From NCBI RefSeq assembly GCF_003337735.1, contig NZ_QPJY01000003.1, forward strand, positions 276,712 through 340,711: a DNA stretch of 64,000 bases, given 5' to 3'. Below, one piece after another: positions 20,774 to 61,450 of the stretch (the stretch's first letter is position 1; each line of letters opens with the position of its first letter). The DNA comes from Thioalbus denitrificans (lineage in GTDB: Bacteria > Pseudomonadota > Gammaproteobacteria > DSM-26407). The position numbers were made by a program, and so were the translations under genes. The notes under the pieces are model-generated. The model was given only the letters and a program-made list of their open reading frames with translations. It made no database searches and had not been told where the DNA came from.

Positions 20774-20988
20774 GAATAGACAGGATTGACAGGATAAACA
20801 GGATTCGAGGGAAGCCTCGCTCATCCGAAGGTGTGCGCGGATTGCCCGGTGCGCAATGCCGCCGGCCAGGCCGCCCTCCTATTCGTGCCAAGAGGCCACA
20901 GCCAAGCAATAAAAACCCGGAATCATGACGGCCAATGGGAAACCCTGAGCTTTCCCAATCCTGTTAATCCTGTAAATCCTGTCTATTC
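20774..20988. repeat. Inverted-arm element built of GACAGGATT units
   Basis: Two 32-bp arms match in inverted orientation at 30 of 32 positions: 20774–20805 (units GACAGGATT, GACAGGATA, AACAGGATT) and 20957–20988 (AATCCTGTT, AATCCTGTA, AATCCTGTC). They enclose 151 bp of non-coding sequence. The element fills the space between the convergent thioredoxin and znuB genes and ends 11 bp before the znuB stop codon. Confidence 0.85.
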
Positions 20989-47106: not shown

Positions 47107-47249
47107 TGCCACAGAGGTCACGGAGAACACCGGTTCGCTCAGGGAAACAAGCCGGCTGATCACCCACCCGGGCAGCTCCGCCCGGGGTAAACGGGCGGAG
47201 CTGTCTCCCACCAGTGCGATGCTCCGTGATCTCCGTGTCCTCTGTGGCA
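47107..47249. repeat. Inverted-arm element with CACAGAGG/CACGGAGA units
   Basis: Arms at 47107–47131 and 47225–47249 match in inverted orientation at 22 of 25 positions (TGCCACAGAGG, then CACGGAGA and CAC units). Inside lies a separate perfect 11-bp hairpin, CAGCTCCGCCC (47173–47183) / GGGCGGAGCTG (47193–47203). The element occupies most of the gap between spoT and ridA, so any spoT–ridA co-transcript would contain it. Confidence 0.8.
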
Positions 47250-49855: not shown

Positions 49856-50654
<799 letters not shown>

Positions 50655-53219: not shown

Positions 53220-53918
53220 ATGTTGCAGCGTAACCTTCCGCCCCTGGTCCTGTTCCTGGCGCTCGCCCTGGCGGCGGCCACGGGGGTCCAGGCCGCGGGG
53301 CAGCAGCGCTTCTACCGCTACCAGGACGATCAGGGCGTCACGGTCCTGAACAACACCATTCCGCCCGAGTACGTGAGCCGGGGCTACGAGGTGGTGGACG
53401 CCCATGGCCGGGTGGTGGAGACGGTGCCACCGGCCAAGTCGGCGGAGGAGATCGCCGCCGAGACGGCGGCCCGGGAGCGACGCGAGGCGGAGCAGCGGGA
53501 GGCCGAGCGCCAGGCCCGGGAACAGGCGCAGAAGGATCAGCGGCTGCTCATCACCTACGTCAGCGAGAGCGACCTCATCGCCATGCGCGACAGCAAGCTG
53601 GCCGTGCTGGAGAGCCAGATTCACCTGGCGGAGGAGAAGATCGGGCGGTTGCGGGAACAACTGCAGCAGCAGCAGGCCGCGGCGGCGAACCACGAGCGCG
53701 CCGGACGGACGGTGCCCGGGAACCTGCTGGCCGACATCGCCAGCACCCGCCAGCAGATCACCGACAACCGCAACTTCATGGAGGAACGCCGCCGGCAGCG
53801 GACCGAGCTGGAGACGCAGTTCGCCGCCGACCTGGAGCGCTACCGCGAGCTCAGGGCGCTCCCGGAGGCACGGCAGCGGGCCCTGAAGCGGGGCGAGGCG
53901 CCGACGCTCAAGCGCTGA
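53220..53918 (+). CDS. Exported DUF4124 protein with coiled coil
   Basis: A 232-residue protein. The signal peptide (LFLALALAAATGVQA) is followed by the DUF4124 segment RFYRYQDDQGVTVLNNTIPPEYVSRGYEVVDAHGRVVETV, then a long glutamate/arginine/glutamine-rich coiled coil (ETAARERREAEQREAERQAREQAQ and LESQIHLAEEKIGRLREQLQQQQAAA). Probably periplasmic; role unknown. The last 11 bp overlap the convergent slmA gene. Confidence 0.82.
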   Translation: MLQRNLPPLVLFLALALAAATGVQAAGQQRFYRYQDDQGVTVLNNTIPPEYVSRGYEVVDAHGRVVETVPPAKSAEEIAAETAARERREAEQREAERQAREQAQKDQRLLITYVSESDLIAMRDSKLAVLESQIHLAEEKIGRLREQLQQQQAAAANHERAGRTVPGNLLADIASTRQQITDNRNFMEERRRQRTELETQFAADLERYRELRALPEARQRALKRGEAPTLKR

Positions 53919-54501
53919 ACACCCCGCGGGCGAGCACCGCCCACTGCTCCGGCCAGCCCTCGGTGGGCGGGCGCTCGAACCCGCTGCGCACGAACTGGCG
54001 CAGCCGACCCTCCGCCGCGGCCAGCAGCAGGCCCGCCGCCACCGGAACCGCCACCGGCAGGGCCGCCCCCGAGCGCATCTCCCCCTCCCGCAGGATCTGC
54101 TTGAGCTGCGTCTCCACCCGGGCGAAGAACTGCGCCACCCGCTCGCGCAGGCGCGCGGTCTCCCCGGTCAGGGCATCGCCGGTGAGCAGCCGGGTGATGC
54201 CCGGGTTGCGGGCGGAGAAGGCCAGCAGCAGGGACAGCACCTTCTCGCAGCGATCCGCCGCCTCCGGCTCCTCGGCGAGAATGATCCCCACCCGGCTGAA
54301 GACCGTCTCCTCGATGAAGGCGATGAGGTCCTCGTACATGCGCGCCTTGCTGGGGAAGTGGCGGTAGAGCGCCGCCTCGGAGACGCCCACCTCCGCGGCC
54401 AGCGCGGCGGTGGTGATGCGCTCGCCCGGATGGGTCTCCAGCATGTGCGCGAGCGCCTCCAGGATCTGCTGCCGGCGCGGAGAGCTGTTCGGTCTGGCCA
54501 T
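53908..54501 (-). CDS. slmA: SlmA-like nucleoid occlusion factor (TetR family)
   Basis: A 197-residue TetR-fold protein. The helix–turn–helix region is RITTAALAAEVGVSEAALYRHFPSKARMYEDLIAFIEETV, and the later helices (GFSARNPGI-like FSARNPGITRLLTGDAL, FFARVETQLKQILREGEMR) follow E. coli SlmA closely. SlmA binds chromosomal sites and blocks FtsZ over the nucleoid. The chosen ATG 54501 gives the family length. It is followed upstream by the doubly nested repeat region and argB. Confidence 0.9.
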   Translation of the reverse strand: MARPNSSPRRQQILEALAHMLETHPGERITTAALAAEVGVSEAALYRHFPSKARMYEDLIAFIEETVFSRVGIILAEEPEAADRCEKVLSLLLAFSARNPGITRLLTGDALTGETARLRERVAQFFARVETQLKQILREGEMRSGAALPVAVPVAAGLLLAAAEGRLRQFVRSGFERPPTEGWPEQWAVLARGVFSA

Positions 54502-54851
54502 GGTTGTCCGTCGGTTGGTATCCACTGCCCGCTGATCTCACCACGAAGGCACGAAGGACACGAAGAAAAGACCAAAGACTGTTTAACCGCAGATTACGCA
54601 GATTTTCGCAGATTATCCGTGGGCAGGGGCGGGCCAGTCGAATTCCCCGGACGCCGGCGGGTCCCATGGGCCGCTCGTTCCCGTTCAAAGACGCACCACC
54701 GCTGGATGACTGCCTCCGCACGACCACCCTACAGAAAAATCATCAGCGTAATCTGCGTAATCTGCGTAATCTGCGGATAGTTCTCTCTTCGTGTCCTTCG
54801 TGCCTTCGTGGTGGGCTCTTCTGCGTTGTAAGCGCCTGCTCTCCGGGCCGG
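54502..54851. other. Gene-free gap slmA–argB filled by repeat element
   Basis: This 350-bp gap has no supportable gene. Nearly all of it is the two-layer inverted-arm element at 54539–54813, leaving about 37 bp on each side. Any argB transcript reading on to slmA, on the same strand, would pass through it. Confidence 0.7.
54539..54813. repeat. Nested inverted-arm element: CACGAAGGA outside, GCAGATTAC inside
   Basis: The outer arms are a perfect 27-bp inverted repeat (54539–54565 and 54787–54813), made of CACGAAGG-type units. Within them are a second pair of arms of another unit: ACCGCAGATTACGCAGATT at about 54586–54619, and GCGTAATCTGCGTAATCTGC at 54746–54776. The central 126 bp are non-repetitive. 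The whole lies between slmA and argB. Confidence 0.9.
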
Positions 54852-55923
<1,072 letters not shown>

Positions 55924-55971
55924 AGAGATTCATGAAATCCCGGGGCTGGCAGCCTGCCGGACTTGATGCTG

Positions 55972-60146: not shown

Positions 60147-60567
60147 GGGCAACGGCGGCGGATCCCGGCAGTGGTGGGGAGTCCCCGAAAAGATACAGCA
60201 TCCAATGTACCGTTTCACTCCTGACGGGAGGACCAGCGCCACACCCCGCCCTCAGGATTGGCACGAGGCAAGAACGGCTTACCGCAGATTGACGTTGATT
60301 GGCGTTGATTTTCTGCCCGCAACCCATTGGGAGCCATCGCGCTACCCGGGCCATTGCAGTTGGTGCCGCGCCGGCTACGACTTTTCCGGCAGCGGAAGCG
60401 GCCGGCATCTGGCAGGGACTACCCGCTTCCCCCCATGAAATCCACGTCAATCAACGCCAATCTGCAGTTAAACTGTTTTTTCCTGTCGATGCCCACGCAT
60501 CGCGCGATGGATGCCTTATATTCAGCCACGGCGGCAGGAGGCCGCCTTGACCCAGGGAGGGGACACC
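60147..60567. other. Divergent gap coaBC–radC, repeat-bearing, no gene
   Basis: This 421-bp region separates divergent coaBC and radC. It contains the inverted-arm repeat at 60280–60470, and no supportable gene. The left 130 bp should hold the coaBC promoter and the right 100 bp that of radC. Confidence 0.6.
60280..60470. repeat. Inverted-arm element with GACGTTGATTG units, left of radC
   Basis: The left arm (60280–60312) contains CCGCAGATTGACGTTGATT followed by GGCGTTGATT. The right arm (60438–60470) is its inverted, imperfect copy, ACGTCAATCAACGCCAATC with TGCAGTT. About 26 of 31 aligned bases agree. The 125-bp core is unique sequence. A second copy of the same arm type lies to the right of radC. 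Confidence 0.8.
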
Positions 60568-61271: not shown

Positions 61272-61450
61272 ACCGCAGATTGACGTTGATTGACGCTGAT
61301 TTTTCCCTGTACTGCATAGCGCCTGCCGGTCCCCGGGAGTCGGGGGAATCCTTTCGTGGCCCGGGGCGACCCACCCGTGCTCGCGTCCCCGCCATGGCCA
61401 CGGGGGCGGCGCGCCGGTAAAATCAACGAAAATCAGCGTCAATCTGCGGT
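61272..61450. repeat. Inverted-arm element with GACGTTGATTG units, right of radC
   Basis: Arms 61272–61303 (ACCGCAGATTGACGTTGATT followed by GACGCTGATTTT) and 61419–61450 match inverted at 28 of 32 positions. The 115-bp interior differs from that of the copy at 60280–60470, while the arms are of the same type. It begins 30 bp after the radC stop codon. Confidence 0.85.

Follow-up and report, generated by a model that had tools for sequence, protein, structure and literature searches.

The nested inverted repeat that lies between slmA and argB in Thioalbus denitrificans appears to be one member of a dispersed family of palindromic, non-coding elements of ~230-300 bp, which resemble REPINs and MITEs and whose arms drive the inversion and exchange of their interiors. 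We give this reading a probability of roughly 0.6. The element is repeated in the genome and modular in its build, and comparison with a sister species reveals changes by single units, interiors inverted in place, and differing interiors at the same sites.

In the window, the stretch of 64,000 nucleotides that was analysed, two genes on the minus strand flank the element: argB (acetylglutamate kinase; 54852-55748; TIGR00761, 248.2 bits, cut-off 151.3) upstream, with its stop codon ~35 nt from the element, and slmA (nucleoid occlusion factor; 53908-54501; NF007015, 267.8 bits, cut-off 120) downstream. The nested inverted arms at 54539-54813 are real. An inverted-repeat comparison recovers an outer pair of 33 nt at 94% and inner pairs of 21 nt at 95% and 17 nt at 100%, all within 54534-54818. 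As a first-pass annotation of this DNA had claimed, the outer arms match perfectly (over 28 of 28 nt, where it had counted 27) and the inner arms face each other. The left outer arm (54539-54566, plus strand), composed of three units of family A (CACGAAGG units) at 8- and 9-nt spacing, is the exact reverse complement of the right outer arm (54786-54813, minus strand). A linker that is purine-rich and then reads TTTAA (54567-54586, plus strand) leads to the left inner arm (54587-54615, plus strand), in which the comparison places three units of family B (GCAGATTAC units). The right inner arm (54741-54776, minus strand), in mirror orientation, holds four B units and is joined to its outer arm by a short form of the linker (54777-54785, minus strand). 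Between the inner arms is a core (54616-54740) that has no detectable relative among 66 elements compared.

A long hairpin is predicted on both strands, with z-scores of -10.0 as RNA and -11.5 as DNA against 200 shuffles. Because this folding far exceeds that of the shuffles, and because the arms recur many times genome-wide, a chance origin of the nested arms is excluded. A search of Rfam gave no match at any family's own cut-off, and two chance hits. In relatives of other families in which both ends of the slmA-argB gap were matched, the gap measures ~36-57 nt (G009, G036, G034 and G012) or ~245 nt (G015).

Other repeats are present in the window. Two B-type inverted pairs without A arms lie at 60297-60462 and 61272-61450, a pair of family C (ACAGGATT units) at 20774-20988, and a pair of CACAGAGG/CACGGAG units at 47107-47249. 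An array at ~50400-50600 translates as a THSRTHA-like repeat, near which matches to the sister species break; the frames flanking it are, we presume from their translations, gmk-like and yicC-like. Just upstream of argB, at 55790-55930, is an inverted CGCCAAG-type pair that is absent from the sister species. We considered this site as a clean empty site and rejected it, since the sister has ~30 nt of other sequence there.

The architecture seen at slmA-argB is repeated across the genome. A pattern of two A units occurs at 172 places and one of two B units at 335, and the reversed control patterns occur at 0. Used as a query, the slmA-argB element finds 161 matches genome-wide, and the A-linker-B arm is found in mirror image in at least 41 elements of the same genome (hereafter A>B, outer family first). 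The order of A and B is equal in both arms across the 37 elements listed, except in L031, whose left arm is degenerate. In 34 of 39 elements both arms have a recognisable second B unit. Most of the listed A>B elements have a linker of similar type joining A to B, and the ends of the elements read TTCACC or near variants. Furthermore, there are four pairs of elements that are copies of each other throughout but stand in unrelated surroundings: L003/L013 (93% over 272 nt), L041/L044 (88%), L010/L028 (87%) and L002/L007 (85%). Like MITEs, the elements are short and non-coding, with terminal inverted repeats and multiple copies in unrelated flanks (the four pairs, 85-93%). Because the element is repeated at least 40 times in the genome, its nesting at slmA-argB is the standard build and not a one-off accident.

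Core sequences were compared for the 41 A>B elements together with elements of other architectures, which make up the set of 66. Among the A>B elements, 15 fall into one group (joined by one B-only element), six form three pairs, and 20 are singletons. The motif of the shared core, allowing up to five mismatches, is present in 11 of 41 A>B elements and 1 of 10 that are B-only or carry C outside B (C>B), and in none of 11 A-only elements or of four in which A surrounds C (A>C). The proposal that one element had been inserted into another, or had grown symmetrically, at slmA-argB is not supported by these counts, given that A-linker-B is standard in at least 41 elements, 15 of which share a core group. 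In a census of 304 kb (the window and 12 further stretches of 20 kb each), few such inverted pairs were found outside the window; therefore the density is uneven, and that sample gives no architecture frequencies. A-unit matches also look clustered among the matches listed, being sparse in C1:0-300 kb and C2:0-500 kb (contigs of G000) and numerous beyond.

The arms are modular: each of A and B is found by itself too, and A can also surround C. The description of the element as two nested unit families is thus sound, in that these are separable modules. C-like units lie outside B in two elements, and at L199 an A element is enclosed by arms of family D (CGCCAAG/CGCAAAG units, the CGCAAAGA type). 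The orders observed, D>A, A>B, A>C and C>B, fit a single linear order in a small sample picked by A or B. The left part of one A>C element (L194) is apparently duplicated in tandem. The first-pass annotation had also considered that inner and outer arms might always occur together as one unit; they do in A>B elements, but each also occurs elsewhere without the other.

Could the nested build have arisen by successive insertions, in which each locus had its own entry of a B element into an A core? The ingredients for such events exist in the A-only and B-only elements, in the A element between CGCAAAGA-type arms at L199, and in B-only L129, which has core sequence in common with A>B element L004 (87.5% over 32 nt). 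However, separate insertions predict that the linkers are halves of unrelated A cores, whereas a similar linker type recurs, and A>B elements occur as whole-unit copies. We regard this explanation as improbable.

The two arms of an element share variants beyond the consensus. Five non-consensus bases are common to both outer arms, against 1.5 expected from shuffled arms (p 0.005), and a further 31 differences are on one side only (both counts from 31 usable elements out of 39). In 12 of 34 elements the two arms carry the same second B unit, against 4.0 expected (0 of 5000 shuffles). This sharing is compatible with subfamilies, with arm-to-arm copying, or with both. Dating the inner and outer pairs by arm divergence, as had been suggested, would mislead, since arms undergo slippage and have variants in common within one element.

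The genome of a sister species (MAG STE_91, JAQVKR01; G001) carries the slmA-argB element at the same site. Its core has zero substitutions, and the whole element is identical apart from one A unit more in one outer arm and one B unit fewer in the opposite inner arm, the right one, each difference being one 9-bp unit. Units therefore slip singly and not in pairs, and single-unit differences in opposite arms and directions are not what symmetric growth would leave. Other length changes in unit steps are of 18 nt (L013) and 9 nt (L023), and at L012 an expansion is confined to one arm. We tried 19 site pairs; L046 lacked a flank, and three sites were added from the sister side, giving 21 sites with both flanks. 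An element is present in both species at all 21, and among these sites no empty site was found within the genus; no excision product was found. A separate repeat of ~270 bp (L114:14500-14771) sits between two flank matches, and the sister genome has ~25 more copies of it, whole or partial, at 80-99%.

At the 21 orthologous sites, the interiors are collinear at 12, inverted in place at three, and without convincing alignment in either direction at six. The inverted interiors are 98% (L002), 92% (L021) and 90% (L008) identical in inverted orientation, and the sister copy of L008 has GGAGG for GAAGG in units 2 and 3 of both arms. For reference, collinear interiors score 284-416 and inverted ones 273-358. 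At L047, where G000 has B and G001 has C, both outer boundaries coincide to the base. The inner pair thus differs as a whole, so that on the scale of entire elements arms are gained or lost in pairs; the first-pass view that arms arise as pairs is correct to this extent, but not for units, which slip singly.

The other non-matching interiors score far lower than the reference values: 86 direct and 114 inverted at L042 (best shuffle 52), 70 and 118 at L011 (best shuffle 42), where the G001 copy is eroded, 39 and 39 at L183/L101 (best shuffle 41), 88 and 54.5 at L320/L102, and 62 and 59.5 at L324/L098 (best shuffle 35.5). The residual alignment at L042, L320/L102 and L324/L098 presumably comes from the B arms. 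At the L324/L098 site, the sister interior matches L007, located elsewhere, at 82% identity over 194 nt. L183 and L044, 4 kb apart, have a nearly identical interior with different right linkers and flanks; because they differ by several bases, more than most collinear elements show, this exchange may predate the species split. Interiors are mostly either near-identical or different, which favours replacement over gradual decay. Some swaps and inversions could be assembly errors, because G001 is a fragmented, thin assembly (510 contigs, 87% complete, ~3-fold coverage according to contig names), though two wrong joins per locus would be needed.

The six non-matching interiors might also mean that, without any recombination between elements, each species independently received a different family member at that site. 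Against this, the boundaries at L047 coincide to the base although the flanks carry no strong motif beyond ~6 nt outside the first A unit, which makes repeated independent insertion at the same base unlikely. In addition, L042 has a CTAACC end in both species, and that A is rare at this position (2 of 74 arms), and the interiors inverted in place require an event within the site in any case. We consider independent insertion distinctly improbable.

The collinear elements have changed less than their surroundings. At the 12 collinear sites there are 7 substitutions in 820 nt of outer arm, 15 in 1018 nt of linker and inner arm, and 15 in 1309 nt of core. The total of 37 in 3147 is lower than in near flanks (27/1149, p 0.007) and further out (641/15259, p 3e-20), where flank counts include the three inverted loci; L012 accounts for 18 of the 37 changes. 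Cores are conserved like arms (15/1309 versus 22/1838, p 1.0). Such equal conservation is not expected of a freely drifting core, and it counts against the mobile-family explanation that we prefer.

The lower counts inside the elements speak for a selected structure, such as a 3'-UTR stabiliser, a terminator or a source of sRNA, that is held by purifying selection and whose mobility is long past. The strong predicted hairpin also counts for it, as does genomic position judged by a crude gene caller. Of 40 elements, 27 have a gene 3' end on one side and a 5' end on the other, 10 are flanked by 3' ends on both sides and one by 5' ends, and two have an open frame running into the element; counting these two, a gene 3' end adjoins 39 of 40. 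Divergent gaps hold 1 of 40 elements, compared with 26 of 174 intergenic gaps in the 304 kb counted with a similar caller (p 0.004-0.012), a scarcity that counts for the mobile-family reading. The position just past stop codons, together with the strong predicted hairpin, suggests a tolerated or useful 3'-UTR structure, and the element may act within the 3' UTR. Nevertheless, interiors are flipped and exchanged with no evident sequence constraint, no Rfam family corresponds to the element, and the 12 sites were chosen for collinearity, which itself lowers their rate. A selected structure is on balance unlikely as the full account, and it is compatible with our preferred reading of a mobile family, not exclusive of it.

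What might have moved the elements? Seven Y1_Tnp (RAYT-type) genes are present in the genome, several with other repeats near their ends, and the elements have the inverted conserved arms, variable spacer, hairpin and extragenic position given for REPINs (PMC3116915). A REPIN proper, whose arms are recognised by a Y1 transposase of this genome, is very improbable all the same, as none of the seven genes has arms directly beside it; on this ground we rejected RAYT as the mover. L056 alone among these loci has an A/B stretch, roughly 0.8 kb distant. The Y1_Tnp genes at L055, L056 and L057 have palindromic REP-like repeats of the GTAGGGCGGGATTCATCCCGCC, GTAGGAGCGGCTTCCAGCCGC and GTAGGATGGGCAAAGCGCAGC types close by, several of them in arrays. 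A search for the Y1_Tnp family revealed no transposase for the element. The surroundings of arms that had no listed partner, 20 stretches in all, showed no long core with a gene and thus no autonomous copy, and elements were short where a partner was seen. When the flanks of 37 elements were compared, words of 2-10 nt did not match clearly more often than expected, whichever boundary offset was taken; such lack of the target-site duplication expected of a MITE fits some mechanisms and proves none.

Taking the mobile family as the preferred explanation, we propose the following course. Each arm is a fixed composite of outer tandem A units, a purine-rich linker and inner tandem B units, and the element would have spread as a non-autonomous, REPIN- or MITE-like unit moved in trans by an enzyme. 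The near-identical arms would then serve as recombination substrates, such that recombination between the arms of one element flips its interior, and recombination with another element swaps inner arms and core together. Arm identity of ~28-35 nt is near the minimum for RecA recombination. The nested families might have come about by such cassette exchange; alternatively, a B (or C) element may have been inserted earlier into an A element, and the composite then amplified. Comparison of only two sister species yields single-unit slippage, in-place inversion and different interiors between fixed outer arms, and therefore the origin of mosaic repeats can be tested by sequencing one genus.

Related sequences occur beyond the genus. 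A three-unit A arm (up to one mismatch) is found in 4 of 369 genomes of the class, and in number only in two of this genus. Searching the named genome collection for an exact A-gap-B arm gives 24 stretches, of which 16 are in the sister MAG and eight elsewhere: Opitutae (1), Burkholderiales (1), Phycisphaerae (2), Kiritimatiellaeota (3) and Chloroflexi (1). The Burkholderiales match (L138), in apparent coding sequence, reads as chance and was set aside. When ten loci were given the inverted-repeat test, mirrored A arms appeared only at L144 (Phycisphaeraceae) and at the gammaproteobacterial L160, and L155 had another unit family. Three plasmid records have arm matches of 31-35 nt only, with Gemmatirosa and Anabaena among the hosts, and phages gave no arm matches. 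A scan of viral contigs returned at least 120 stretches; among the matches listed, the viral-collection contigs L217 and L268 have six and five A-unit matches. On sequence similarity alone, A and B sequences in distant phyla could reflect transfer, common descent or convergence. A broader class might be envisaged, spread over Gammaproteobacteria, Planctomycetes, Verrucomicrobia/Kiritimatiellota, Chloroflexi, Gemmatimonadota and Cyanobacteria, in which recurring families of 8-9 bp units serve as interchangeable arm modules, and in which outer arms anchor a site while inner arms and core are exchanged or flipped as cassettes by a dedicated mechanism that would create matching arms pairwise as well; we hold this extension to be doubtful. 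Six A or B motif strings had no match in the literature searched, which is no proof of their absence from print, and the one match for six related unit strings was irrelevant; searching by subject led to work on REPs, REPINs, MITEs and foldback elements.

Among known systems, REPINs are REP doublets that form hairpins, and their description (PMC3116915) gives two inverted conserved repeats, a less conserved spacer, a hairpin in single-stranded DNA or mRNA, extragenic location, high copy number and non-autonomy. The present elements likewise have a less conserved spacer enclosed by two inverted conserved repeats, a predicted hairpin and an extragenic position. However, REPIN arms are single short REPs in that account (PMC3116915), whereas arms here are composites of 70-80 nt built from 8-9 bp tandem units of two families; no RAYT carries arms beside it, and from one sister species to the other the interiors have been flipped or swapped. 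The foldback transposon Tetris of Drosophila (PMC4079207) has internal repeats of ~220 bp and target-site duplications of 8-10 bp. It shares with our element long inverted repeats made of tandem subrepeats around a middle that varies in composition and size, with no transposase found in either, but it is eukaryotic and has the target-site duplications that are lacking here. BrickBuilt, a MITE of Porphyromonas gingivalis with small inverted-repeat ends, is also a bacterial, MITE-like intergenic element that holds a tandem array; its 23-nt units form one array (PMC4596501), in contrast to the mirrored arrays of two families described here.

In the way it works, the present element resembles a REPIN or a foldback element, although it lacks the RAYT linkage of the first and the target duplication described for the second. 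In BIME mosaics, REPs are reportedly spaced regularly with alternating orientations; there too short palindromic modules stand in composite arrangement, but here different families are nested as mirror-image pairs. Bacterial short palindromic repeats are usually handled as single units, whereas here two unit families build one arm, and the same units recur in distant phyla.
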